A stretch of 64,000 bases of DNA from Xanthocytophaga flava. Lineage in GTDB: Bacteria; Bacteroidota; Bacteroidia; Cytophagales; 172606-1. This document shows positions 33,610 to 47,983 of this stretch, one piece after another (the stretch's first letter is position 1; each line of letters begins with the position of its first letter). The translations under genes and the position numbers were made by a program. The notes beneath the pieces were generated by a model. That model was not told the DNA's origin, ran no database searches, and saw nothing but the letters and a program-made list of their open reading frames with translations. Location: contig JASJOS010000002.1 in NCBI GenBank assembly GCA_030068525.1, forward strand, positions 124,001 to 188,000. Reading direction: 5' to 3'.

Positions 33610-36039
33610 TTATTCAGATCGCAAAGATTTAACAGGATTAATCAATGCCGCTTTGATGGCCTGAAAGCTTACCGTTAACAACGCAATCAATAAGGCTGCT
33701 ATACCTGCTATCAAAAATACCCACCATTGAATGTTGACCTTAAAAGCAAAATCCTGTAACCAGGTACTTATAGCCCAGTAGGCTAATGGGAAGGCTATGC
33801 CATTGGCAATCAGTATAAGTTTCAGAAAATCTTTGGATAACAGAGCCACAATATTGGATATACTGGCTCCGAGTACTTTGCGAATCCCAATTTCCTTGGT
33901 ACGTTGTTCTGCTGAATAAGCTGATAATCCAAATAACCCTAGGCAAGCTATAAAAATAGCAAGTAGAGCAAATGTGATAAATAGCTTACCCACTTTTTGT
34001 TCACTCTGATATACATTGGTAAATGCCTCATCCATAAACTGATAGTTAAATGGCTGCCCTGGAGCAATAGTTTTCCACTTAGCTTCAATTTTTGAAATAG
34101 TAGCAGGCATGTTCTCTGTATTCAGTCGGAAACTAACATTGCCAGGTGCATTTCCAAGTGTGAAGCATACAGCACCAATATTTTGTCTCAGAGATTCAAA
34201 ATTGAAGTTTTTAACAACTCCAACAATTGTATAGGCACGTGTTTGCTGAGTTTTAAAATCAGTCAAAGCAGAAATACGTCTTCCAATTGGATTGGAATAG
34301 CCAAATAGTTTCGCAGCGGTTTCATTGATAATAATACCAGAAGAGTCTGTCTGTAACTGTTTATCAAAATCTCTTCCTTTAATAATCTGCATTCCCATTG
34401 TTTGAATGTAATCATAATCTACATTCCAGCTTTGTATAGAGACTGCTTTATCCTGTCTTATTTCTCCTTCCGGAAAATAAAGATTGTCGCTGCGCCAGGA
34501 GGGTACAGGAAGATATCCGGTAATAGTTCCATTTTTCACTTCTTCCAAACGCAAGACTTCATTTTTGAAGCTTTCTGTGCTGTTTCCTAATGCACTGGCA
34601 TCATTGATAATAAGTACCTGTTCTTTATTGAACCCTAATTGTTTATTTTGTATGAAGGTGAGTTGCTGATAGATGACAACTGTACATATAATCAAAAATA
34701 CAGAGGCCAGAAACTGAAATACAACCAGCGAACTTCGTAAGCTACTGCTTTTAGCCCCCTGACTTAGCTTACCCTTTAATACCTGTATAGGCTCAAATGC
34801 AGATAAAAAGAATGCCGGATAACTTCCTGCCAATAAACCTGTAAATAGGGTGAATAATAATAGTACAGGTATAATCAGGGGGTGTTCAATGACAGACATA
34901 GTCATTTGCTTGCCTGCTAAATCATTAAACAAAGGAAGTAACATCACTCCTATACCCAATGCAAGAACAAATGCAATACCTGTTAACAAAATAGATTCTG
35001 TAAGAAACTGATAGATTAAACTACTACGGTAAGATCCAAGAACTTTTCGTACACCTACTTCTTTTGCTCGATTGGCTGAACGGGCTGTAGCCAGGTTCAT
35101 AAAGTTGATGCAGGCAATAAGCAGTATGAAAAAGGCTACAGCAGAGAAAATATAAACATACTGAACATTACTATTAGGAGATACTTCAGCCACACGGTCT
35201 GAATACAGATGGATATCAGAAACAGGCATCAGGCTATAATTAAGATAGCTTCCTGACTTTTTTAAGTCATTCAGTGTAGAGCCAAATGCCTGTTTTATTT
35301 GGGGGCCTACATATTTTAAAAGTAGATTATCAAATACTGCTTCTACCTGAGCTGGTTTTACTCCTTCTTTCAACAATAAATAGGTAGTGTAATTGTGACT
35401 TACCCAATTATCAATCTTACTATCTTCATGGTCAAGCATCGTAAGAAAGAAATCAATTTTTAAATGTGAATTGGTTGGAAGATTCTCTATAACACCCACT
35501 ACTTTGTAGGGTTGTTTATCATCCAGAATCATTGTTTTACCTACCACATTGGACTCCCCAAAGTATTTCTGGGCTATTCGCTCAGAAATAACAAGTGTAT
35601 GAGGCTCTGTAAGTGCTTTGTCTGGGTTACCATACAACATTGGAAAAGAGAAAACTCTGAAAATAGTTGAGTCTGCATAGCCGACATTTTGTCCATCCTC
35701 CTTGATGTTTTCATTTCCTTTTTTTACCAATATACTTCCTGTTTGTCGTATACGTGCAGCAGCTTCTACCAATGGATAATCACGAACCAATGCAGCACCA
35801 GTTGGAGCGGGCATTACGGCTAGACTCATCTGATTGCCTCCAAATTTGATATCCGAATTAAGTCTGTATATACGATCTGCGTTGGAGTAAAAACGATCAT
35901 AGCTGATCTCATCCAGAACATATAACATAATTAACAGACAGGTGGCAATACCAATAGATAAACCAAAGATGTTTGTTGCTGAAAAACCTTTGTTACGCCA
36001 GAGATTCCGCATTGCAATCTTAAAGTAGTTTCTTAGCAT
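33610..36039 (-). CDS. MacB/FtsX-type ABC permease, copy 1
   Basis: 809 residues from Met at 36039 (MLRNYFKIAMRNLWRNKG, the start form of its neighbours). A first membrane segment (about 17-40) is followed by a periplasmic MacB_PCD domain, three membrane segments with 'RAKEVGVRKVLGS' and 'GSYPAFFLSAFEP', then a second periplasmic domain and three segments with 'RTKEIGIRKVLGAS' and the tail 'NPVKSLRSE'. It is thus a full-length duplicated permease of about eight segments. No ATPase gene lies beside it. The family includes lipoprotein, drug and peptide exporters; the cargo is unknown. It is the last gene of the second permease unit. Confidence 0.9.
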   Translation of the reverse strand: MLRNYFKIAMRNLWRNKGFSATNIFGLSIGIATCLLIMLYVLDEISYDRFYSNADRIYRLNSDIKFGGNQMSLAVMPAPTGAALVRDYPLVEAAARIRQTGSILVKKGNENIKEDGQNVGYADSTIFRVFSFPMLYGNPDKALTEPHTLVISERIAQKYFGESNVVGKTMILDDKQPYKVVGVIENLPTNSHLKIDFFLTMLDHEDSKIDNWVSHNYTTYLLLKEGVKPAQVEAVFDNLLLKYVGPQIKQAFGSTLNDLKKSGSYLNYSLMPVSDIHLYSDRVAEVSPNSNVQYVYIFSAVAFFILLIACINFMNLATARSANRAKEVGVRKVLGSYRSSLIYQFLTESILLTGIAFVLALGIGVMLLPLFNDLAGKQMTMSVIEHPLIIPVLLLFTLFTGLLAGSYPAFFLSAFEPIQVLKGKLSQGAKSSSLRSSLVVFQFLASVFLIICTVVIYQQLTFIQNKQLGFNKEQVLIINDASALGNSTESFKNEVLRLEEVKNGTITGYLPVPSWRSDNLYFPEGEIRQDKAVSIQSWNVDYDYIQTMGMQIIKGRDFDKQLQTDSSGIIINETAAKLFGYSNPIGRRISALTDFKTQQTRAYTIVGVVKNFNFESLRQNIGAVCFTLGNAPGNVSFRLNTENMPATISKIEAKWKTIAPGQPFNYQFMDEAFTNVYQSEQKVGKLFITFALLAIFIACLGLFGLSAYSAEQRTKEIGIRKVLGASISNIVALLSKDFLKLILIANGIAFPLAYWAISTWLQDFAFKVNIQWWVFLIAGIAALLIALLTVSFQAIKAALINPVKSLRSE

Positions 36040-36100
36040 AGTTGTTTGATTCATTAGGTGAGTTAGATTCTGGAAAATTTATTTTATCGGACGGTGATCT

Positions 36101-38545
36101 TTATTCAGATCTAAGGGATTTGACAGGATTAGCTCTTGCTGCCCGAATGGCCTGATAGCTGACTGTGGCCTGAGCTACAATCATTGCCAGAATACCTGCC
36201 AGTAAAAATATCCACCACGAAATATCAATCCGAAACGCAAATCCTTGTAGCCATTTATTCATAAAGTACCATGCAACAGGGGCCGCAATAACAAATGAGA
36301 TAAGGACAAGTTTGATAAAATCTTTTGACAGAAGGATTACTATCTGACTGATCGAAGCTCCCAATACTTTTCGAATACCTATTTCCTTTACTTTTTGTTG
36401 TGCTACCAGAGAAATAAGACCATACAGACCCAGGCAGGAAATAAGAACAACCAACCCGGCGAAGTAGCTGATGATATTTCCCAGACGCTGATCGCTTTCG
36501 TATTGACGGGCAATGGATGTATCCAGAAAGTCATATTCAAATGCCTTTTCCGGGAAATACTCAGACCATTTTTTCTCCAGGAAACTGAGTGTCTGAGGTA
36601 CATTGCTTGAACTGATCTTTATTGAGAATAAGTTCAGTTGAGGAATATCAACATCTATAAGAACACCTTCCAATGGTTGAGACAATGTTTCTGCATGAAA
36701 ATCCTGTATTACTCCAATAATCTTTCCTTGTTTTCCTTCTCTGTCAATAGTTTTACCCAAGGCTTTAGCCGGAGTAGTCCATCCGAACGATTTAGCTCCG
36801 GTTTCAGTGATAAGAAAGGCGGACTCTTTATCTGTTTCAAAATCTTCCGAAAAATCCCGTCCTGCCAGTAATTTCATGTTATAGGTTTTCAGAAAGTTGT
36901 AATCTACTGCCAGACAGGCGATAAATTTGTTGTCTTCTTTTGTAAAGCCTTCTGGTACAATTCCTCTTCGTGTGCTTCCCTGCCCCAATGCCTGGCTGGA
37001 TAATGTTACTTCCTCAATAGAAGGGTTCTGTTTTAGTACATTTCTAAACGTTTTGATCTTTTGATACAGACTATCATTTGATGGAAGGAAAATATTGTTC
37101 AGGTTCTGGCTAAAGAGAGGTGTCGTAATAATGTAGTCTTTCTCAAACCCTAAAGGTTGGTTACGCATAAAATGCAACTGATTGAAGGCGATGCTTGCTG
37201 CAATGATTAGCCCTATAGATGCTGCAAACTGTACAACCACCAATGCTTGCCGCAAAATTCCTCCCTTCGCTTTTTCACTGGTATAGCTTCCTTTTAATGT
37301 AGTAATAGGCTGGAAGGCTGATACGAAAAATGCCGGATAGCTACCTGCCAACAGACTGGTTATGAGAAATATTCCAATAAAGGAAGGTATGAGAATAGGG
37401 TCATTTAGTAAAGTAGAGAATGACAAGTGTTTTCCTGTTAGTGTATTCATTACAGGTAAGAATAATTGAATCAGGATAAACGAGCATAGAAAGGCTATCA
37501 ACGCCAGTAAAAAGGATTCACCTAGAAACTGCTGAATAAGGTGTTTTCTCTCTGCCCCCAGTACTTTACGCATACCTACTTCTTTAGCACGTTTTAGTGA
37601 ACGAGCTGTGGAAAGGTTGACAAAGTTGATACAAGCAATCAGTAATGTAATAAAAGCAACACCTGTAAACACATATAAATAAGTGATATTTCCAGGAGCC
37701 TCAGCTTCTCCTCCCAGATTAGATCTGAGGTGAAAATCACGCATCGGTTGTAACTGATATTCTATGTCTTTGCTGAATTGTTTGGGAGCATGATCCAGTA
37801 AAAACTGAGGAAATCGGGCATTTACTGATGCAGGATTCTGATTTGGTTTTAATAATACATAGGTGAATGAATGGCTGATGATCCAGTTGCGAGGTAGGTT
37901 TTCGCGTGCCTCAGGATTCTCCAGCGCGAACATAGTTTGATAGTTGGAAATGAAATTGAAATGAATGTGTGAGTTGTCTGGAAATTCTTTGACAACACCT
38001 GTCACTTTCATCGGATGCATACCTCCAAACAGGATTATTTGTCCTAATGCCGATTGGCTACCAAAATATTTCTTCTCCATCTCCTCTGTCAGAATCACAG
38101 TAAACGTCTCATTAAGAGCCGTTTTAGGATCTCCCTTCAGGAATGCGAAGGAGAAGATTTGCAGGATAGAAGAATCCGCAAAGAAGAAGTTTTCTTCCTC
38201 AAAACTCTTTTTTATATCGCCCTGATTGACAGCCATACTGGCATTACGGCGATACATACGGGCAGCAGTTTCCATCTGAGGAAAATAACCAGGCAATAAA
38301 GGGGCTACAGGGGGGGGAAGCACAGCCAGTGCAGTAGGTAACTCCGCAAATTTTGGATTGTATGTGATACGATATATTCTGTCAAACTTTTCGTGAAAAG
38401 TATCAAAGCTTAATTCATTACGCACAAACAACAAAATCATAAAACAACAGGTCATACCCATTGTCAAACCAATAATGTTAATGAACGCAAAGCTTCTGAA
38501 GCGATTTAAATTGCGAAGAGCGATTTTAAGATAATTCTGTATCAT
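36101..38545 (-). CDS. MacB/FtsX-type ABC permease, copy 2
   Basis: 814 residues from Met at 38545 (MIQNYLKIALRNLNRF). The architecture is that of copy 1, with 'RAKEVGMRKVLGAERKHLIQQFLGESFLLA' in the middle and 'KVKEIGIRKVLGASISQIVILLSKDF' and 'NPVKSLRSE' at the end. A run of eight G (38310-38317) encodes Pro residues in the first periplasmic domain. The upstream gap (38546-38599) holds a hairpin but no sigma-54-like site, so it is probably read through from copy 3. Confidence 0.9.
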   Translation of the reverse strand: MIQNYLKIALRNLNRFRSFAFINIIGLTMGMTCCFMILLFVRNELSFDTFHEKFDRIYRITYNPKFAELPTALAVLPPPVAPLLPGYFPQMETAARMYRRNASMAVNQGDIKKSFEEENFFFADSSILQIFSFAFLKGDPKTALNETFTVILTEEMEKKYFGSQSALGQIILFGGMHPMKVTGVVKEFPDNSHIHFNFISNYQTMFALENPEARENLPRNWIISHSFTYVLLKPNQNPASVNARFPQFLLDHAPKQFSKDIEYQLQPMRDFHLRSNLGGEAEAPGNITYLYVFTGVAFITLLIACINFVNLSTARSLKRAKEVGMRKVLGAERKHLIQQFLGESFLLALIAFLCSFILIQLFLPVMNTLTGKHLSFSTLLNDPILIPSFIGIFLITSLLAGSYPAFFVSAFQPITTLKGSYTSEKAKGGILRQALVVVQFAASIGLIIAASIAFNQLHFMRNQPLGFEKDYIITTPLFSQNLNNIFLPSNDSLYQKIKTFRNVLKQNPSIEEVTLSSQALGQGSTRRGIVPEGFTKEDNKFIACLAVDYNFLKTYNMKLLAGRDFSEDFETDKESAFLITETGAKSFGWTTPAKALGKTIDREGKQGKIIGVIQDFHAETLSQPLEGVLIDVDIPQLNLFSIKISSSNVPQTLSFLEKKWSEYFPEKAFEYDFLDTSIARQYESDQRLGNIISYFAGLVVLISCLGLYGLISLVAQQKVKEIGIRKVLGASISQIVILLSKDFIKLVLISFVIAAPVAWYFMNKWLQGFAFRIDISWWIFLLAGILAMIVAQATVSYQAIRAARANPVKSLRSE

Positions 38546-38564
38546 ACAAGAAAAGTTTAAAAGC

Positions 38565-38590
38565 AAGCCCATAAGTATAGGTATGGGCTT
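38565..38590 (-). terminator. Hairpin between permease copies 3 and 2
   Basis: A 9-bp perfect stem (AAGCCCATA / TATGGGCTT) with an 8-base loop and only a weak T-run on the minus strand. It may slow or partly stop transcription rather than end it. Confidence 0.5.
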
Positions 38591-38599
38591 TGTTTGGAC

Positions 38600-40984
38600 T
38601 TATTCAGATCGTAATGCGTTAACAGGATTTGATAAAGCTGCCCTGATTGTATGGTAGCTTACTGTTAAGAGCGTGATAAGTAGAATCACCAGGCTTGAAA
38701 TAATAAAGGTTTCAGGCTTTAAAGGTGTACGATATGGGAAAGTACTCAACCATTGATGCATAAAATAATACGAGACAGGAAAGGATATAATACAGGCTAC
38801 CCCTATCAGAAGCAGAAAATTCTTATTGATGAGAAGGAATAAGTTTCCTGTTTCAGCTCCCAGTATTTTCCGGATGCTGATTTCCTTTTGTCGTTGCTGG
38901 GTAGTGAATGCTACCAATCCCAATAGGCCCAGACAGGCTATTAATATAGTCAGAGATGAAAAAGCGGTAAATATCTGGCCTCTCCGCTGGTCGGCTGCAA
39001 ACTGAGTGGTAAAGTCCTGATCCAGGAATGTGTATTGAAATGGCTCATCCGGAAATACGGATTTGACTTGTTTTTCTACATAACCGACTGTGGCAGGAAT
39101 ATTCTGATTGCTGACTTTAACCTGAATGGTATTGTTATTTTGCCGATATACAAGAATGAGAGGCTCTATAGGATTATAAAGAGATCTTTGGTGGAAGTCT
39201 TTTACCACACCAATTACTTCCATAGTATTGGCTGTATCACCTGCAAAGCGGATCTTTTTACCTAAAGCTTCCTGCCAGCCCATTTGCTTCAGCATTGCTT
39301 CATTGACAATGGCTCTTCGTAAGGTATCAGACTGATCTGTCTCGGTAAAGTTTCTTCCTTCAACGAGTTTAATACCCAATGTTTTTAAATAGAATGGATC
39401 TATACCATAAATATCAGAAGCGTAATTGGTAAAACCATTTTTCGATTCTATCTCAAATAAGATTTTGCTGGCATCAGACCCCGGTGTAGCATTGGATGTA
39501 CTTACATCAATTATCTGAGAATTTTTACGTAATTCATTTTGAAGCAAACGTAATTTGCTCTTTACATCACCTTGTTGGTTCAAATTAATAACCATTACCT
39601 GTTCCTTGTCATAACCTAGATCTTTGGTGCGTAAAAACTGCAACTGGTCATATACTATCCAGGTACAGATAAGCATAATCATAGAAATGGAAAACTGCAT
39701 TACAACCAACACTCTCCGTAAGGCTATGTTACTGGACCCTTTCGCCAGACTGCCCTTTAATACAGATACAGGATTAAATTTAGCCAGATAAAACGCTGGA
39801 TAGCTACCTCCAATCAGACCGACCAGTACTATAATGCCAATCAGCGAAAGAAATGTAAACGGATGAAAGAGAGTGTTAAATTGAAATAGCTTGCCTGATA
39901 GCATATTAAATACCGGAATCAGGAAAAAAATAAATACTATGCTTATCACAAAGGAAATAAATGTTAACACAATGGATTCTGTCAGAAACTGCAGAATCAG
40001 TTGAAATTGTGTAGAGCCTGCTACTTTACGGATGCCTATTTCTTTTGCCCTGCGTGCAGATCGGGCTGTTGTTAAATTCATGTAGTTGATACTGGCAATA
40101 AGCAACATGAATACCGCTACAATAGAAAACGTATAAATGTATGACATACTGCCCACCTCTTCAGGTTCACCATTTAGTGTAGAGTGAAGATGGATATCTG
40201 TAATAGGCTGGACACCATAATGCATTTTGACATTGAAAGGGGCAAAAATACTTGCCATGTATTTATCATACATAGGCAACAGCTTTTTTTCAAATGCGGA
40301 TGGGTTTACAGCAGGATTAAGTAATACATAGGTAAAAAATCCAAAATTACCCCAGTTATTGCCGAAGTCTTTTGGAAGTGTGCTTACAGATAGGAGTGCA
40401 TTGAATCGGATATGTGAATTAAGTGGTACATCCTGTAGAATTCCTGTTATTTTATATACTGTTCCATTGGATGTTTGCAAGGATTTACCTGTTAGATCTT
40501 TAGTCGTTGAAAAAAGTTTTTTCGCCAGTGTTTCTGTTAATAGAATAGAGTTAGGCGCTAACAAGGCTGTTTTCGGATCTCCTTCCAGAAAGGGATAGGT
40601 AAATACCTCAAACAGATTACTGTCTGCAAAGAATATTTTGTCTTCAAAAAGATGCTGCTCTCCATTTTTTAACAGCGTTCGCCCTTTTCCGACAAAGCGA
40701 ACCGCTTGCTCTACTTCCGGATATTCTTTTTTCAATGCCGGAGCAAGTACAAATTGGGTAATAGCTACATGATCAGTTCGTTCTGGTTCCTGTAGGTGGG
40801 TGATAATGCGATAAATATGGTCTGCTTTTGTATGGTAACGATCAAAGTTTAGCTCATCCCTTACATAAAACAATAAAAATAAGCTAAAGGTAATTCCAAT
40901 GGTTAGTCCAAGAATATTTAACAGACTAAAACCTTTGTCTTTGGTTAAGTTCCGGAACGCGACTTGTAGTAAATTCTTAAGCAT
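38600..40984 (-). CDS. MacB/FtsX-type ABC permease, copy 3
   Basis: 794 residues, starting MLKNLLQVAFRNL. It has the same eight-segment design: 'RAKEIGIRKVAGSTQFQLILQFLTESIVL' in the middle, and 'RQKEISIRKILGAETGNLFLLINKNF' and 'NPVNALRSE' at the end. It begins the second transcription unit. Upstream are a terminator, a -24/-12-like promoter (41080-41096) and two palindromic sites (41145-41184). Confidence 0.9.
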   Translation of the reverse strand: MLKNLLQVAFRNLTKDKGFSLLNILGLTIGITFSLFLLFYVRDELNFDRYHTKADHIYRIITHLQEPERTDHVAITQFVLAPALKKEYPEVEQAVRFVGKGRTLLKNGEQHLFEDKIFFADSNLFEVFTYPFLEGDPKTALLAPNSILLTETLAKKLFSTTKDLTGKSLQTSNGTVYKITGILQDVPLNSHIRFNALLSVSTLPKDFGNNWGNFGFFTYVLLNPAVNPSAFEKKLLPMYDKYMASIFAPFNVKMHYGVQPITDIHLHSTLNGEPEEVGSMSYIYTFSIVAVFMLLIASINYMNLTTARSARRAKEIGIRKVAGSTQFQLILQFLTESIVLTFISFVISIVFIFFLIPVFNMLSGKLFQFNTLFHPFTFLSLIGIIVLVGLIGGSYPAFYLAKFNPVSVLKGSLAKGSSNIALRRVLVVMQFSISMIMLICTWIVYDQLQFLRTKDLGYDKEQVMVINLNQQGDVKSKLRLLQNELRKNSQIIDVSTSNATPGSDASKILFEIESKNGFTNYASDIYGIDPFYLKTLGIKLVEGRNFTETDQSDTLRRAIVNEAMLKQMGWQEALGKKIRFAGDTANTMEVIGVVKDFHQRSLYNPIEPLILVYRQNNNTIQVKVSNQNIPATVGYVEKQVKSVFPDEPFQYTFLDQDFTTQFAADQRRGQIFTAFSSLTILIACLGLLGLVAFTTQQRQKEISIRKILGAETGNLFLLINKNFLLLIGVACIISFPVSYYFMHQWLSTFPYRTPLKPETFIISSLVILLITLLTVSYHTIRAALSNPVNALRSE

Positions 40985-41079
40985 AGTTGTAGTGAGTAGG
41001 TGGAGTTACAGCATACTTAGCCTGAGTATCTTTATGGTACCAGATTACAGAAATAAGAAATGCTGAATTCCTATCGAGG

Positions 41080-41096
41080 ATCAAGCTATATGCCAA
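41080..41096 (-). promoter_or_regulatory. Sigma-54-like promoter of permease copy 3
   Basis: On the minus strand TTGGCATATAGCTTGAT matches the TGGCAYR-N4-TTGCW consensus except for A in place of C in the -12 GC. It would start the transcript near 41069, about 85 nt before the ATG at 40984. Confidence 0.55.
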
Positions 41097-41104
41097 AATA
41101 AAAA

Positions 41105-41132
41105 ATGCCCTTTATCTGCAAATAAAGGGCAT
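41105..41132 (-). terminator. Strong terminator after permease copy 4
   Basis: An 11-bp perfect stem (ATGCCCTTTAT / ATAAAGGGCAT), 6-base loop, and TTTTTT on the minus strand. It splits the array into two transcription units and lies between the palindromic sites and the promoter of copy 3. Confidence 0.88.
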
Positions 41133-41144
41133 GCATAACGCGAA

Positions 41145-41184
41145 TATTGTCCATTATCGGACAATACTGCACGTTTGCGAACAG
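41145..41184. promoter_or_regulatory. Paired palindromic operator upstream of permease copy 3
   Basis: Site A, TATTGTCC-N6-GGACAATA (41145-41166), is a perfect inverted repeat. Site B, CTGCAC-N6-GAACAG (41167-41184), is less symmetric, and its right half shares 12 of 13 bases with the site upstream of copy 5. The centres lie 20 bp apart and about 87 and 107 bp before the predicted start of transcription, the usual range for enhancer-binding activators. Confidence 0.6.
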
Positions 41185-41231
41185 TAGAAAGTATAATTAG
41201 TTACAATACAAGAGAGTATAATATTAATACG

Positions 41232-43679
41232 CTATTCTGTACGAAGAGCTTTTACCGGATTGGTAAGAGCCGCTTTAATAGCTTGATAACTGATGGTTAG
41301 CAAAGCTATCCCTGTAGCCGTAATTCCCGCTACAACGAAAATCCACCAGCTTAGTCCGGTTCGGTAAGCAAAGTTCTCCAGCCATCGACTCATTACCCAC
41401 CAGGCTATGGGCGAGGCAAGCACAAAAGAAATGCCTACCAGTCTTATAAAATCTCTGGACAGCAATACGATAATCTGCTGTACTGAAGCGCCTAATACCT
41501 TGCGTACTCCAATCTCTTTGGTGCGTTGCTGAGTAGTATAGGCTGCCAAGCCCAGTAAACCCATACATGCTATAAAAATAGCTAGTATGGAAAACACACC
41601 AAATACTCGTTGAGAGGTTTGCTCGGCATGATACAATGCTGCCAGATCCTGATCCAGAAAGGAATAGTGAAACGGCTGCTGTGGAAGAAACTGATGCCAC
41701 AGAGATTCAATGGTAGTAAGTGTATGCTGGAACTTATCAGACTGAATGCGTAGGCTGGTTAAGGGTGATACTTCTCCAAACTTGCTTGTGTTAAGCAGAA
41801 TAAGGGGTGTGATTTTTTGGTGCAGTGATTGAAAATGAAAGTCTTTCAGAATTCCTACAACTGTGTAGTAGGTTTGACCAGGCTTGCCGGGCTGATTCAG
41901 AAATGGGTCCGGACTGGTAAGCCGTGCACCAATAGGATTGGCTAGTCCTAGTTCTGCTACCGCTTTTTCATTCAGCATAACAGCCAATGAATCAGACGGA
42001 AATTTATCGGAAAAGCTGCGACCTTTGACTATTTCCAGTTTGAGTGTAGAGGCAAAATCATTATCTACAACTAATCCTCTTCCTGTGAGTGGTTCTTTTA
42101 CTCCTTCTGCTTTCATTGTCATACCAAAAAAGTTTTGACCACCAGGCATAGACGATGCACCTGAGACCTCTTCGACTCCAGCAATTTTTTTGAGTTCAGT
42201 TTTGAACGCTTTTGTTTTTGTATTTAACAGATCTGTTCGCTGTAAGGTAATGATATGATCTTTCTGAAAGCCCAGGCGATCTCCTTGCATAAACTGCATC
42301 TGTTTAAAAACAACAATTGTGCAGATGATAAGAATAATTGAAATACTAAACTGAAAGATCACCAATCCATTGCGTAATTCAATCCCCCTCTGATTGTGTT
42401 TGAACTTCCCTCGAAGCACTGCCAGTGGCTGAAATGAGGACAATATAAGAGCCGGATAGCTGCCAGCCACAAGACCAATCAGAATAGAAAAAAGTAAAAA
42501 TCCTGGCATGAATACAGGATTCAATAAAAAGCCTAATGATAACTCTTTGCCAGAGATCTTATTGAAGGAAGGTAGAAGAATAAGTAATAGGAGACAGGAC
42601 GTAATAAAGCTAAATACACTGATCACAACCGCCTCAGTAAGAAATTGCATGACCAGCATTTTTCGCTCAGAGCCAAAGGTTTTTCGAATACCTACTTCTT
42701 TAGCTCGTTCTACAGAGCGGGCAGTAGCCAGATTTACAAAGTTCACACAGGCAATCAACAAAATAAATCCGGCAATAACAGAGAATATATAAATGGTAGA
42801 AATACTACCATTCGGTTTGAGTTCTGCTTCCAGATCTGAGTGCAGATGAATATCCAGTAAGGGTTGTAGAGAATAATTATATCCATTACCAGCTGCCTGA
42901 AACTGCTCGTAAGAGGTATCAAATGTACGGGCTATTTCTCCTGCTACATACTTTTCAATGATCTTGGGAAACTTTGCCTCCAGTGATTTGGCAGAAGCAT
43001 TGGGTTGTAGCAGAAAATATGTATACGCATCAAAGCCTGTGTAGTTTATTTGTTTGGTGAAATCTATACCGGATGAAGCTGCCAGCAGATCAAATGTGAA
43101 ATGAGAATTTTCGGGTACCTTAGAGCATACACCCGTTACAATCAAATCATTGCCCCCTGCATCAAGTTTTATCGTTTTATTCAGAACATTTAACGTTCCA
43201 AAATACTTTAAGGCGGTTTCTTCTGTCAGAACAACAGCATTGGGTTTATTAAGTGCTGTTTGTGTATTACCTTGAGTTAATGGAATTGTAAAGACCTGAA
43301 AAAAGTTTGAGTCAGCAAAGATGACATGATTCTCTTCAAATACCTGGTCTCCTATCCTAATAAAAATTGTATTGCCTCCATCTGCATACATACGCATGCA
43401 TTGTTGAACTTCTGAATATTCTTTCTGAACTGCTTCACCTATGGAATGAGGAATGATAGAGTAGGAGGTAGAACGTCCCGGATACCGGCGTTCCAAAACC
43501 ATCCGATATATACGATCTGCTTTTTCATTGAACCGATCATAACCAAGTTCACTCTGAATATAGACCACAATCAGTAGACAAATGGATATTCCTACTGCCA
43601 ACCCAATAATATTGATTAGAGAAAAACCTTTGTTCTTCCATAAATTTCGTAGTGCAATCTTGATATAGTTACGAAGCAT
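41232..43679 (-). CDS. MacB/FtsX-type ABC permease, copy 4
   Basis: 815 residues, starting MLRNYIKIALRNLWKNKG. 'RAKEVGIRKTFGSERKMLVMQFLTEAVVI' is in the middle, and 'RTKEIGVRKVLGASVQQIIVLLSRDF' and 'NPVKALRTE' at the end. It is the second gene of the first unit, 142 bp after copy 5, and is followed by a strong terminator. Confidence 0.9.
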   Translation of the reverse strand: MLRNYIKIALRNLWKNKGFSLINIIGLAVGISICLLIVVYIQSELGYDRFNEKADRIYRMVLERRYPGRSTSYSIIPHSIGEAVQKEYSEVQQCMRMYADGGNTIFIRIGDQVFEENHVIFADSNFFQVFTIPLTQGNTQTALNKPNAVVLTEETALKYFGTLNVLNKTIKLDAGGNDLIVTGVCSKVPENSHFTFDLLAASSGIDFTKQINYTGFDAYTYFLLQPNASAKSLEAKFPKIIEKYVAGEIARTFDTSYEQFQAAGNGYNYSLQPLLDIHLHSDLEAELKPNGSISTIYIFSVIAGFILLIACVNFVNLATARSVERAKEVGIRKTFGSERKMLVMQFLTEAVVISVFSFITSCLLLLILLPSFNKISGKELSLGFLLNPVFMPGFLLFSILIGLVAGSYPALILSSFQPLAVLRGKFKHNQRGIELRNGLVIFQFSISIILIICTIVVFKQMQFMQGDRLGFQKDHIITLQRTDLLNTKTKAFKTELKKIAGVEEVSGASSMPGGQNFFGMTMKAEGVKEPLTGRGLVVDNDFASTLKLEIVKGRSFSDKFPSDSLAVMLNEKAVAELGLANPIGARLTSPDPFLNQPGKPGQTYYTVVGILKDFHFQSLHQKITPLILLNTSKFGEVSPLTSLRIQSDKFQHTLTTIESLWHQFLPQQPFHYSFLDQDLAALYHAEQTSQRVFGVFSILAIFIACMGLLGLAAYTTQQRTKEIGVRKVLGASVQQIIVLLSRDFIRLVGISFVLASPIAWWVMSRWLENFAYRTGLSWWIFVVAGITATGIALLTISYQAIKAALTNPVKALRTE

Positions 43680-43714
43680 AGGAGTGTATGTTAGATGAAT
43701 GGGAAAGATAGCAG

Positions 43715-43736
43715 AATGAATACTTAATGAATACTT
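43715..43736. repeat. Two tandem copies of an 11-bp direct repeat
   Basis: AATGAATACTT occurs at 43715-43725 and again at 43726-43736, one helical turn apart, 36 bp before the start of permease copy 4. It could bind a protein or be chance in AT-rich sequence. Confidence 0.4.
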
Positions 43737-43748
43737 ACTTTATAAACG

Positions 43749-43782
43749 GCTATTCTTCTACCTGAAAAAGTAGAAGAATAGC
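43749..43782 (-). terminator. Hairpin between permease copies 5 and 4
   Basis: A 13-bp perfect stem (GCTATTCTTCTAC / GTAGAAGAATAGC) with an 8-base loop. Only a short T-run follows on the minus strand, so it may be an attenuator or partial terminator. Confidence 0.55.
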
Positions 43783-43821
43783 TGTTCCGGCTGATTGCAG
43801 AAAACTATATGCTTGAACACC

Positions 43822-46203
43822 CTATTCGGAACGTAACGATTTTACCGGATTGGCTAGCGCTGCTTTGATGGCCTGGAAGCTTACCGTTAACAGTGTAATT
43901 ACCATAGCTCCCACTCCCGACAAAACAAATACCCACCAACTGATTTCAGAACGATATTCGTATTTTTCGAGCCATTGACTCATCGTAAAGTAGGCAATCG
44001 GCACAGCGATAAGGAATGAAATAATAACTAAGGTAACAAAGTCTTTCGATAGCAATTGCCATAAGTTAACAACAGAAGCCCCAAGTACTTTCCGAATACC
44101 AATTTCTTTGGTACGTTGCTCTGCCATAAAGGAGGCTAGACCAAACAGCCCCAAACAGCTGATAAATATAGCCAGTGAGGCAAAAAAGCTAGCTAGTGTG
44201 CCTATACGTTCTTCTGCACGAAACTTTTGTTCATATTCTTTATCAACAAACTTGAAGTCAAAAGGACTACCCGGATTATGTTTTTTGAAAACGGCCTCAA
44301 CTTTTGCAAGAGCATTCTTTGAGTTTATACCTGCTTTCATTTTAATGGTAATAACGTTAGCCCATCCATAATCTAACAGGAATATGGTGGGTTTAATCGG
44401 ATCAAAAGGGGATTCCATTACCATATCTTTAATGATCCCAATGATTGTATATTTTTTGTCATTAAATCTAACTGTCTTTCCTACAGGATCTTTTATTCCT
44501 GCATACTTAACAGCTGCCTCATTGAATACAAAACCAACACTATCTGTAGCGTATTCCCTTGAAAAATCCCGGCCTTCTTTAAATTGCCAGCCTACTGTTT
44601 TACCATAATCATGAGTAACTGCGATAGTACCAAACAATGCTAGCATGTTTGGGTCTTTGCCTTCCCAGTCAAAGCCAATCTGATTAGACCATACACCTGT
44701 TGTCGGACTGGAAGACTCACTCATGTTTTCTACAGCACCTGTCTTAATCAAGTCACTGCGAAGAACATCATAGTGTCCATATAACTCTGGCGTATTCATC
44801 ATAACCGTGATAAGCCCTTCCCGGTCGTAACCAATCGGACGGTTTTTCGCATACTGGATCTGACGAAAGACAATGATAGTACCAATGATGAGACTGACAG
44901 ACACTGTAAATTGTACCACTACCAAGACTTTACGTGGTAAGGATGCCAATCGACCAGCTTTGAAGGTCCCTTTCAATACTTTAACAGGTTGAAAAGAAGA
45001 TAAATAAAAGGCTGGGTAGCTGCCTGATATCAGACCTGTAAAAGCTGTAAAGGTAAGACAGGATATCCAGAAGACAGGATTTGTCCAGAGGATACTCATC
45101 TCTTTATCTGCCAGTGTATTAAACCAGGGTAGTGTACAAAGTACCAGAAATACCCCAACCAGAAACGCAATTCCTGCAATAACAAGTGATTCGCTGAGAA
45201 ATTGTCCAATCAATTGTTGTCTGACTGACCCAATTGCTTTACGAATCCCTACTTCTTTAGCTCGTTTTTCACTACGGGCCGTACTTAAGTTCATAAAGTT
45301 GATACAGGCCAGTAATAATACAAATGTCCCAATAATACCAAACAACCACACAAACTGAATGCGTCCGCCTATATTTATGCCATTTTTAAACTCAGAATAT
45401 AAATGCCATTGACTCATAGGATGCAAAAATGCAACAGGCTTGTCATCTTCACCTTTGGCACGATGTGACTGAACTACATTTTTAATCTTGGAATTGATCT
45501 TTCCATACTCTGCTTTATCTGCAATCTGGACAAATAGCTGAAAGGAATTGTTGTTCCACTGGGTCTGTGACTCTTTTACCCAGTTTTGCAGAGTTAGATA
45601 TTTTTCCCAGGGAATTAAAAATGAGGTACTGTGTAAGGTTGAGTTATAAGGAAGGTCTTCATAGACACCCGTTACTTTTAAGGTCGTCTTATTATCTAAC
45701 TTTATGATTTTATTGATAGGGTCTGTATCTCCAAAAAGTGTTTCAGCTAGCGATTTGGTAATAAGTATAGAAGAGGGATCTTTTAATCCATCTAATGTCC
45801 CTTGTATCATTTTTAATGAAAGCATTTGCGGGAGTTCAGGTTCTGTAAACATTCCCTCTTTGGTAAACTTTTTGTCCTCAAAAGCTAAGATATGTTCAAA
45901 GTTCCAGGAAGCTAAAGCCAAAGATTTGAAATCTGCCGCATACTTAGTGCGTAACTCTCCTGCCAGCGGAACAGGAATTGCAGCACTGGTACTTGTAGTT
46001 CCACTAAAGGTTTGATTCTGATAGACCTGTGCTAAACGATCATAGTTCGTATGAAACTTGTCATAAGAAAGTTCATCATAGATCCATAACCCTATCAGAA
46101 TGGCTACAGCCATGCCTACAGATAGTCCCAGAATGTTAATGGATGAATACGCTTTGTTCTTTAAAAGATTTCGAAAGGCAATTTTGATGTAGTTTCGAAT
46201 CAT
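43822..46203 (-). CDS. MacB/FtsX-type ABC permease, copy 5
   Basis: 793 residues, starting MIRNYIKIAFRNLLKNKA. It has the same eight-segment design, with 'RAKEVGIRKAIGSVRQQLIGQFLSESLVI' in the middle, and 'RTKEIGIRKVLGASVVNLWQLLSKDF' and 'NPVKSLRSE' at the end. It is the most diverged in the periplasmic domains. It opens the first unit of the array, with its own paired palindromes and a -24/-12-like promoter upstream. Confidence 0.9.
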   Translation of the reverse strand: MIRNYIKIAFRNLLKNKAYSSINILGLSVGMAVAILIGLWIYDELSYDKFHTNYDRLAQVYQNQTFSGTTSTSAAIPVPLAGELRTKYAADFKSLALASWNFEHILAFEDKKFTKEGMFTEPELPQMLSLKMIQGTLDGLKDPSSILITKSLAETLFGDTDPINKIIKLDNKTTLKVTGVYEDLPYNSTLHSTSFLIPWEKYLTLQNWVKESQTQWNNNSFQLFVQIADKAEYGKINSKIKNVVQSHRAKGEDDKPVAFLHPMSQWHLYSEFKNGINIGGRIQFVWLFGIIGTFVLLLACINFMNLSTARSEKRAKEVGIRKAIGSVRQQLIGQFLSESLVIAGIAFLVGVFLVLCTLPWFNTLADKEMSILWTNPVFWISCLTFTAFTGLISGSYPAFYLSSFQPVKVLKGTFKAGRLASLPRKVLVVVQFTVSVSLIIGTIIVFRQIQYAKNRPIGYDREGLITVMMNTPELYGHYDVLRSDLIKTGAVENMSESSSPTTGVWSNQIGFDWEGKDPNMLALFGTIAVTHDYGKTVGWQFKEGRDFSREYATDSVGFVFNEAAVKYAGIKDPVGKTVRFNDKKYTIIGIIKDMVMESPFDPIKPTIFLLDYGWANVITIKMKAGINSKNALAKVEAVFKKHNPGSPFDFKFVDKEYEQKFRAEERIGTLASFFASLAIFISCLGLFGLASFMAEQRTKEIGIRKVLGASVVNLWQLLSKDFVTLVIISFLIAVPIAYFTMSQWLEKYEYRSEISWWVFVLSGVGAMVITLLTVSFQAIKAALANPVKSLRSE

Positions 46204-46256
46204 AGTTTTAATTCGGGTAGTGATAGTGTATACAGAAAGCAGTTTGGTTTTCTGAA

Positions 46257-46273
46257 CACAAACAATGCACCAA
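46257..46273 (-). promoter_or_regulatory. Sigma-54-like promoter of permease copy 5
   Basis: On the minus strand TTGGTGCATTGTTTGTG keeps the -24 TTGG and the -12 TTG at the correct spacing but lacks the C of the -12 GC. It is weaker than the copy before 40984. It would start the transcript near 46246, about 42 nt before the ATG. Confidence 0.4.
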
Positions 46274-46334
46274 ATCTCAGCGAAAGCCTTTGTGAGCTAA
46301 TTTAGCGGTTTTCAGGAATTGTTTCCTTATAATA

Positions 46335-46373
46335 CTGTCCGTTTGTGAACAGCTACTGTTCGACGGTGAACAG
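46335..46373. promoter_or_regulatory. Paired palindromic operator upstream of permease copy 5
   Basis: CTGTCC-N6-GAACAG (46335-46352) and CTGTTC-N6-GAACAG (46356-46373) have centres 21 bp apart, about 98 and 119 bp before the predicted start of transcription. The second is a perfect inverted repeat with 6-bp arms. The pair has the same plan as the sites at 41145-41184, shifted by about one helical turn. Confidence 0.62.
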
Positions 46374-46427
46374 ATTCAAAACTGGAGCTGATAGGAGAAA
46401 TAAACGTTGATTAGGCTGGACTGTATC

Positions 46428-47629: not shown

Positions 47630-47983
47630 CTAAGGATTTAATTCCTCACTTTGTATAGATGGCAATAAGCCGAGTGACTGATACGTAGTAGATAGTCGAT
47701 TTAACGTTTGTTCAAAAGAACTGAAATACAAACGTGAACTGTGTGAATATCCTGTATGGCAAATTAGTTGCCAGGTACTTTCGTCTGTCTCAGATTGTGG
47801 TGTACAAATTATCCAAAACGGATGTTGAAATAGGGTTAATGAACCTATCTTCTCACAACTGCTTCCTCCTCGGATAGCCCAGGAGCCCTGTGCTTCCGGA
47901 TCACGCTGAGCGACCAGACCTGCATTGGCAATAAGTTGAAGACAATAGTTTATCTCTAAAATTTGCTCATTCTCTGTATCCAT
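47630..47983 (-). CDS. Small protein of unknown function
   Basis: 117 residues without signal peptide or membrane segment. It has 'SWAIRGGSSCEKIGSLTLFQHPFWIICTPQSETDESTWQLICHTG' in the middle and a helical end 'FEQTLNRLSTTYQSLGLLP'. Codon use looks normal. I know no family. Confidence 0.6.
   Translation of the reverse strand: MDTENEQILEINYCLQLIANAGLVAQRDPEAQGSWAIRGGSSCEKIGSLTLFQHPFWIICTPQSETDESTWQLICHTGYSHSSRLYFSSFEQTLNRLSTTYQSLGLLPSIQSEELNP

Follow-up and report, generated by a model that had tools for sequence, protein, structure and literature searches.

Here we examine two intergenic gaps in a 64,000-nucleotide stretch of the Xanthocytophaga flava genome (contig JASJOS010000002.1, positions 124,001 to 188,000; G000:C22:124001-188000, from a 9.5 Mb genome on 63 contigs), hereafter the window, which very probably hold sigma-54 promoters of one large permease regulon. 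The window encodes five long permease genes, all read from the minus strand and in head-to-tail order (33610-46203; Table 1); in a genome-wide domain search the first MacB_PCD domain was found in all five copies and the second in four. The gaps before copies 3 and 5 (gaps A and B) each carry two palindromes, as the original prediction had described and direct reading bears out, spaced 20 bp apart in gap A and 21 bp in gap B, and the 13-bp stretch that it described as nearly shared, CGTTTGYGAACAG, is located in both (41172-41184 and 46340-46352). The -24/-12-like elements were likewise recovered with their predicted starts, and the proposed offset of one helical turn corresponds to palindrome-to-TGG distances of 68 bp in gap A and 79 bp in gap B, a difference of 11 bp. 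One gap A palindrome is weak because its arm CTGCAC is degenerate. From the gene arrangement, copies 5 and 4 are likely transcribed from promoter B and copies 3, 2 and 1 from promoter A.

Table 1. Features of the two gaps and the adjoining permease genes, in window coordinates (UAS, upstream activator sequence).
Feature	Sequence	Coordinates	Strand	Remarks
UAS1, distal palindrome of promoter B	CTGTTCGACGGTGAACAG	46356..46373		centre about -118 from predicted start; direct reading
UAS2, proximal palindrome of promoter B	CTGTCCGTTTGTGAACAG	46335..46352		centre about -97; direct reading
-24/-12-like element, promoter B	TGGTGCATTGTTTGTG	46257..46272 (46272-46257 on minus)	-	predicted start about 46246
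UAS1, distal palindrome of promoter A	CTGCACGTTTGCGAACAG	41167..41184		one arm degenerate; centre about -106
UAS2, proximal palindrome of promoter A	TTGTCCATTATCGGACAA	41147..41164		centre about -86; direct reading
-24/-12-like element, promoter A	TGGCATATAGCTTGAT	41080..41095 (41095-41080 on minus)	-	predicted start about 41069
Terminator-like hairpin, then T run		41105..41132	-	between UAS2 and promoter A; -15.5 kcal/mol, z -4.15
Permease copy 5		43822..46203	-	heads unit B; 793 aa with two MacB_PCD and two FtsX domains
Permease copy 4		41232..43679	-	815 aa; follows copy 5 in unit B after a gap of 143 bp
Permease copy 3		38600..40984	-	heads unit A; 794 aa with two MacB_PCD and two FtsX domains
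Permease copy 2		36101..38572	-	823 aa; unit A, gap 28 bp
Permease copy 1		33610..36054	-	814 aa; unit A, gap 47 bp

Single palindromes with at most one mismatch are not enriched in the window (10 against 6.28 expected, a number reached by 12 of 100 shuffles), and TGGYA-N6-TTG alone, at 10 occurrences against 5.47 expected, is marginal and near chance. The signal lies in the full layout, defined as two TGTYC-N6-GRACA palindromes 16-27 bp apart followed 45-114 bp on by TGGYA-N6-TTG, with at most three mismatches in total, and scanned for in the 700 bp upstream of 71 genes found to encode a first MacB_PCD domain. Far in excess of chance, it occurs upstream of 21 of these 71 permease genes, compared with a mean of 0.02 and a maximum of 1 per set in 50 dinucleotide-shuffled sets of 71, and with none of 212 coding stretches. 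Reverse-complemented upstream regions gave matches in 5 of 71; the palindromes are symmetric, and the TGG distances of these five are scattered (61, 92, 97, 97 and 104). In the 21 layouts the palindromes lie 20-22 bp apart, and TGG follows at 78-82 bp in 16 and at 67-70 bp in 5; in two relatives, for which 18 of 20 sites were parsed, it follows at 78-82 bp in 12, 68-71 bp in 3 and 89-91 bp in 3. Distance classes one helical turn apart are predicted by enhancer looping, and the recurrence of the layout supports the NtrC-type activator geometry, as well as supplying the further genomic sites, that the original prediction called for. In all 16 promoters of the 78-82 bp class, positions -26 to -24 are TGG and position -13 is G, in part by selection, as the scan required GG. 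The genome scan proposed originally, with the pattern CTGTYC-N6-GRACAG, returned six places, against three for its backwards control. Four of the six precede permease genes, the others being intergenic (C15:81792) and within an open reading frame (ORF; window 54540), and the pattern proved too narrow. TGTYC-N6-GRACA fits the site set better.

The reach of the system across the genome was assessed with a sequence-only profile trained on the genome's own permease promoters (14 of 16 listed promoters, C60:89742 and C7:167802 being left out). Searching the same genome returned 30 matches at E up to 3.6e-4. These include the 14 training rows, whose matches follow from the way the profile was built, and one site that was entered twice, once for each strand. 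Promoter B (46256-46375, E 7.8e-15) is itself a training row, while promoter A (41081-41186, E 2.7e-7) lies outside the training rows. When permeases of at least 590 aa, as read in the retrieved stretches, were assigned to 31 site rows, including a weak one (C33:150161, E 0.05), 25 of the 59 long permeases were found directly behind a site and 14 later in a site-headed unit (39 of 59), giving 25 permease units headed by the switch, two of them in the window. Sites also stand ahead of PadR-permease genes (C16:63004, C9:181983 and, at E 0.006, C12:137435), a permease-prefix gene at a contig end (C29:909), and an HlyD-ATPase pair followed by a permease (C61:197182). Two further sites (C60:140774 and C7:17148) precede similar small proteins (L163:6231-6710 and L167:4591-5124) that are probably secreted and have weak DUF3244 and secretion-tail matches under the cut-off, and a weaker site (C63:23806, E 0.001) precedes a beta-lactamase-fold protein. 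A TolC-family gene (OEP domain; L166:6169-7659) has a palindrome pair upstream (C61:306168), behind which no promoter was found at the usual distance. The genome encodes rpoN (C60:423131-424600) with all three Pfam sigma-54 domains.

Conservation in relatives, which the original prediction had named as a test, was found in 24 of 39 related genomes with profile matches. Among the matches fetched from the rows listed for two of them (11 of 26 in G004 and 9 of 18 in G034), 16 of 20 precede a permease or PadR-permease gene and 4 precede other genes; at one locus (L288) the permease is the second gene behind the site. A sister species (G002) holds both window sites (C3:517217 and C3:522393). Its gap A is 91% identical to that of the window over 247 columns, with all arms the same. 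For gap B the identity is 84% across 275 columns; neither the arms nor the -24/-12 element differ, and the spacer holds many differences. At the proximal palindrome of gap A (41147-41164) the central six bases are reverse-complemented between window and sister species (L301) (GATAAT / ATTATC) within identical arms, so that the palindrome centre looks as if inverted.

The regulator was expected to lie outside the window, and none of the genome's 14 strong sigma-54 activators falls within it. Co-occurrence and gene neighbourhood indicate that the regulator of the sites is most likely the 460-aa protein encoded at G000:C33:390375-391757(-), which combines receiver, AAA+ (Sigma54_activat) and Fis-type helix-turn-helix (HTH) domains and is adjoined by a histidine kinase gene (C33:388903-390255). 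The receiver residues D12, D13, D56, T89 and K111 are invariant in 16 regulator orthologs. At the GAFTGA-loop position the candidate reads GSFTDA and others read GAFTDA or GAYTDA; the tolerated variants listed in the accessible part of PMC4641369 are GAFTDA, GAYTDA and GSFTGA, GSFTDA being absent from that list. Across the 39 genomes, an ortholog (at least 50% identity; a fragment in G033) is present in 20, all 20 of which have profile matches at E up to 0.01, and of the 19 genomes lacking an ortholog 4 have one match each (E 3.7e-4 to 0.009). A test with stricter filters and 29 candidates scored per genome, covering this regulator and an activator from contig C9, was extended to 118 genomes of the order: site and regulator occur together in 48, the site only in 6 (G033, with its regulator fragment, counted here), the regulator only in 13 and neither in 51 (Fisher p 1.7e-14, uncorrected for kinship).

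Gene neighbourhoods in relatives point to the same protein. At four loci (L186, L187, L194 and L196) the regulator gene is divergent from HlyD-ATPase genes related to the C61 pair of our genome, with profile matches in the gap between (E 1e-7 to 3e-4); at L193 a match immediately precedes HlyD, at a distance of 2 kb from the regulator, and at L183 one directly precedes the regulator itself. More broadly, 80 of 505 relatives were taken as named regulator loci, 78 of which had the regulator ORF in the scan (all except L274 and L277) and two of which (L201 and L223) offered less than 450 bp of upstream sequence. Relatives of HlyD, ATPase or permease genes lie nearby in 52 of the 78. A palindrome pair with at most two mismatches was present within 450 bp upstream in 19 of the 78, comprising 10 of the 52 with pump neighbours and 9 of the 26 others, and in none of 50 shuffled sets. 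Ten regulator relatives at 59-64% identity (L231, L235, L238, L241, L249, L250, L266, L270, L274 and L279) come from records labelled KSB1, Zixiibacteriota, Aminicenantes, Latescibacterota, Cloacimonadota, Deltaproteobacteria, Acidobacteria and Chlorobiota, and eight of these ten loci adjoin HlyD or ATPase genes; either wide transfer or mislabelled bins could account for them.

Since the geometry recurs in the genome and in relatives, rpoN is present, and co-occurrence and neighbourhood link one particular NtrC-type regulator to the site, we consider it highly probable that each gap holds a sigma-54 promoter whose tandem enhancer sites serve one and the same NtrC-type two-component response regulator, that of C33:390375-391757. 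In such a scheme, the regulator, phosphorylated in response to a signal, would bind the two TGTYC-N6-GRACA palindromes, two helical turns apart and thus on one face of the DNA; the DNA would loop across the 52-63 bp between enhancer and promoter; and at the -24/-12 element the AAA+ domain would open sigma-54 polymerase. Promoter B would then drive copies 5 and 4 and promoter A copies 3, 2 and 1, as part of one switch serving 25 permease units and an HlyD-ATPase operon.

Several observations weigh against this assignment. TGGYA-N6-TTG can be read in both gaps, with promoter B carrying the variant TGGTG. The textbook form of the -12 element is TTGC; the -12 base in the 16 promoters is T in 8, C in 6 and A in 2. 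No assigned site precedes 20 of the 59 long permeases, one of which (C61:194583) comes after the HlyD-ATPase pair. The co-occurrence is incomplete, the regulator being found without a site match in 13 of the 118 genomes and a site match without the regulator in 6. In our own genome the pair scan found no palindrome pair before the regulator gene, so that the link between regulator and site rests on the relatives, and only 19 of the 78 named loci have a recognisable upstream pair; in most of the lineages of the other 59 the site has thus changed, lies elsewhere or is absent.

With 14 strong sigma-54 activators encoded in the genome, the sites could in principle be used by another of them. The operon of a paralogous response regulator (C33:460881-462251, within an efflux operon) starts behind a related palindrome pair with TGGCA-N6-TTG at 94 bp (profile E 0.006), and a GAF-type activator (C9:183337-185385) is encoded about 1.2 kb from the site C9:182078, near a site-bearing permease. 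We regard this as unlikely, as homologs of the C9 activator, our control, occur in only 3 of the 118 genomes against 54 of 118 for the site, a genome with a paralog-like protein (G035; 43% to the query) nonetheless has no site, and gene neighbourhood in relatives favours the C33:390375 type.

Rather different accounts would dispense with enhancers altogether. PadR genes head several units and operators are typically palindromic, so the palindromes might be operators of a repressor such as PadR at ordinary promoters, the -24/-12 match being incidental; this is very improbable given that the TGG distances are fixed and helically phased, that many sites, including those of the window, precede permeases with no PadR gene, and that the sites co-occur with a sigma-54 activator. 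Similarly, the permease genes are paralogs, often in tandem arrays, and might simply carry copied upstream sequence devoid of function. This artefact of descent appears the least probable of all, because palindromes and promoter agree while the spacers are unalike, as in gap B of the sister species G002, where arms and -24/-12 element are kept and the spacer differs. Furthermore, the distances jump by whole turns, and the layout also stands before unrelated genes (those for HlyD, small proteins and the beta-lactamase-fold protein).

The mechanism proposed for the C33:390375 regulator is of a known kind. It resembles NtrC-type (group I) sigma-54 regulons in its receiver-AAA+-Fis HTH regulator with a histidine kinase and in having palindromes in pairs some 85-120 bp ahead of a -24/-12 promoter, and differs from them in site and targets. 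The regulator scores below the cut-off of every named NCBIfam equivalog model shown for it (PEP_resp_reg, the best, 400/502.6; AtoC 375/714), including that of the nitrogen regulator NtrC, NR(I) (TIGR01818, 362.5/558.6), and NifA (318.5/528.85). NifA sites share the outer skeleton TGT-N10-ACA upstream of sigma-54 promoters, whereas the sites described here are paired and also have fixed inner YC/GR bases. Within the Bacteroidota, the sigma-54 regulon of Flavobacterium psychrophilum (SM4 promoters) has typical -24/-12 elements; in the accessible part of that report its activators are unassigned and the printed selection of targets (chaperones, gliding and envelope functions) names no such permeases (PMC9723704). 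Against that background, we propose an identity, a binding site and target genes for a sigma-54 activator of the Bacteroidota, and no description of this regulon was found in the open-access literature searched.

Comparable considerations apply to the transport proteins. The closest NCBIfam model to the window permeases is that of the ADOP duplicated permeases (TIGR03434), likewise a large paralogous family, which they match over the whole length; by this model they are not members (copy 5 286.4 and copy 3 311.9 against a cut-off of 622.3). For large duplicated-permease families that have no ATPase gene to themselves, annotation gives the function as unknown, with 28 and 33 ADOP copies in two Dyadobacter genomes, as far as the accessible part of PMC11573002 reports. 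A further likeness is to the darobactin exporter DarBCD, which has an adaptor, a separate ATPase and a duplicated permease, and whose DarC and DarB models are best or second-best matches, at scores below their cut-offs (HlyD 206 bits against 450 for DarC; permeases 126.8 and 193.7 against 700 for DarB). Unlike DarBCD, one adaptor-ATPase pair here stands beside dozens of permeases.

As to how the permeases are powered, our genome encodes 12 ATPases of this type (E up to 1e-30) and 59 long permeases. An ortholog of the C61 ATPase, whose operon has a site, occurs exactly once (E up to 1e-85) in 17 of the 39 genomes, and each of these 17 belongs to the 20 that have the regulator. All 12 genomes with at least 30 MacB_PCD matches (a count of 59 per genome being a lower bound, at least 59) have the site, the regulator (as a fragment in G033) and exactly one C61-ATPase ortholog, and the other 27 have at most 16 such matches, with the regulator in 8. 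At five loci encoding all three proteins, and in a comparison limited to these three, conservation is highest for the ATPase (72-85%), the regulator reaching 56-68% and HlyD 44-66%. The co-distribution of ATPase, regulator and site fits a shared motor for the orphan permeases. The recurrence of the switch in this genome and its relatives, probably under one regulator, suggests that it may activate dozens of 'orphan' pump genes at the same time as one motor common to them all. It is possible, if on balance doubtful, that a single HlyD-ATPase pump, perhaps joined by a TolC partner, uses these duplicated permeases as membrane subunits that can replace one another, all co-expressed by one sigma-54 two-component system. 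In that case, the sharing of one regulator and one ATPase by all members could be what allows permease families to expand. With 39 of 59 permeases and one adaptor-ATPase pair behind one switch, and a probable regulator named, there is a route to what these families do, when, and with which motor.

Two minor features of the window were also noted. The hairpin ahead of promoter A probably ends the copy 4 transcript, in which case the terminator of an upstream gene seems nested within the enhancer-promoter spacer (41105-41132). A role for spacer hairpins as part of the enhancer was rejected, as z falls below -2 in just 4 of the 28 sites parsed out of 30; folding hairpins occur at 4 of 19 sites with a co-directional upstream gene and at 0 of 9 divergent sites, and as all four have a co-directional upstream gene, they are more likely terminators of that gene. 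Finally, a palindrome at 47757-47773, TGGCAAATTAGTTGCCA, fits the -24/-12 pattern on both strands and may be an operator of another kind.
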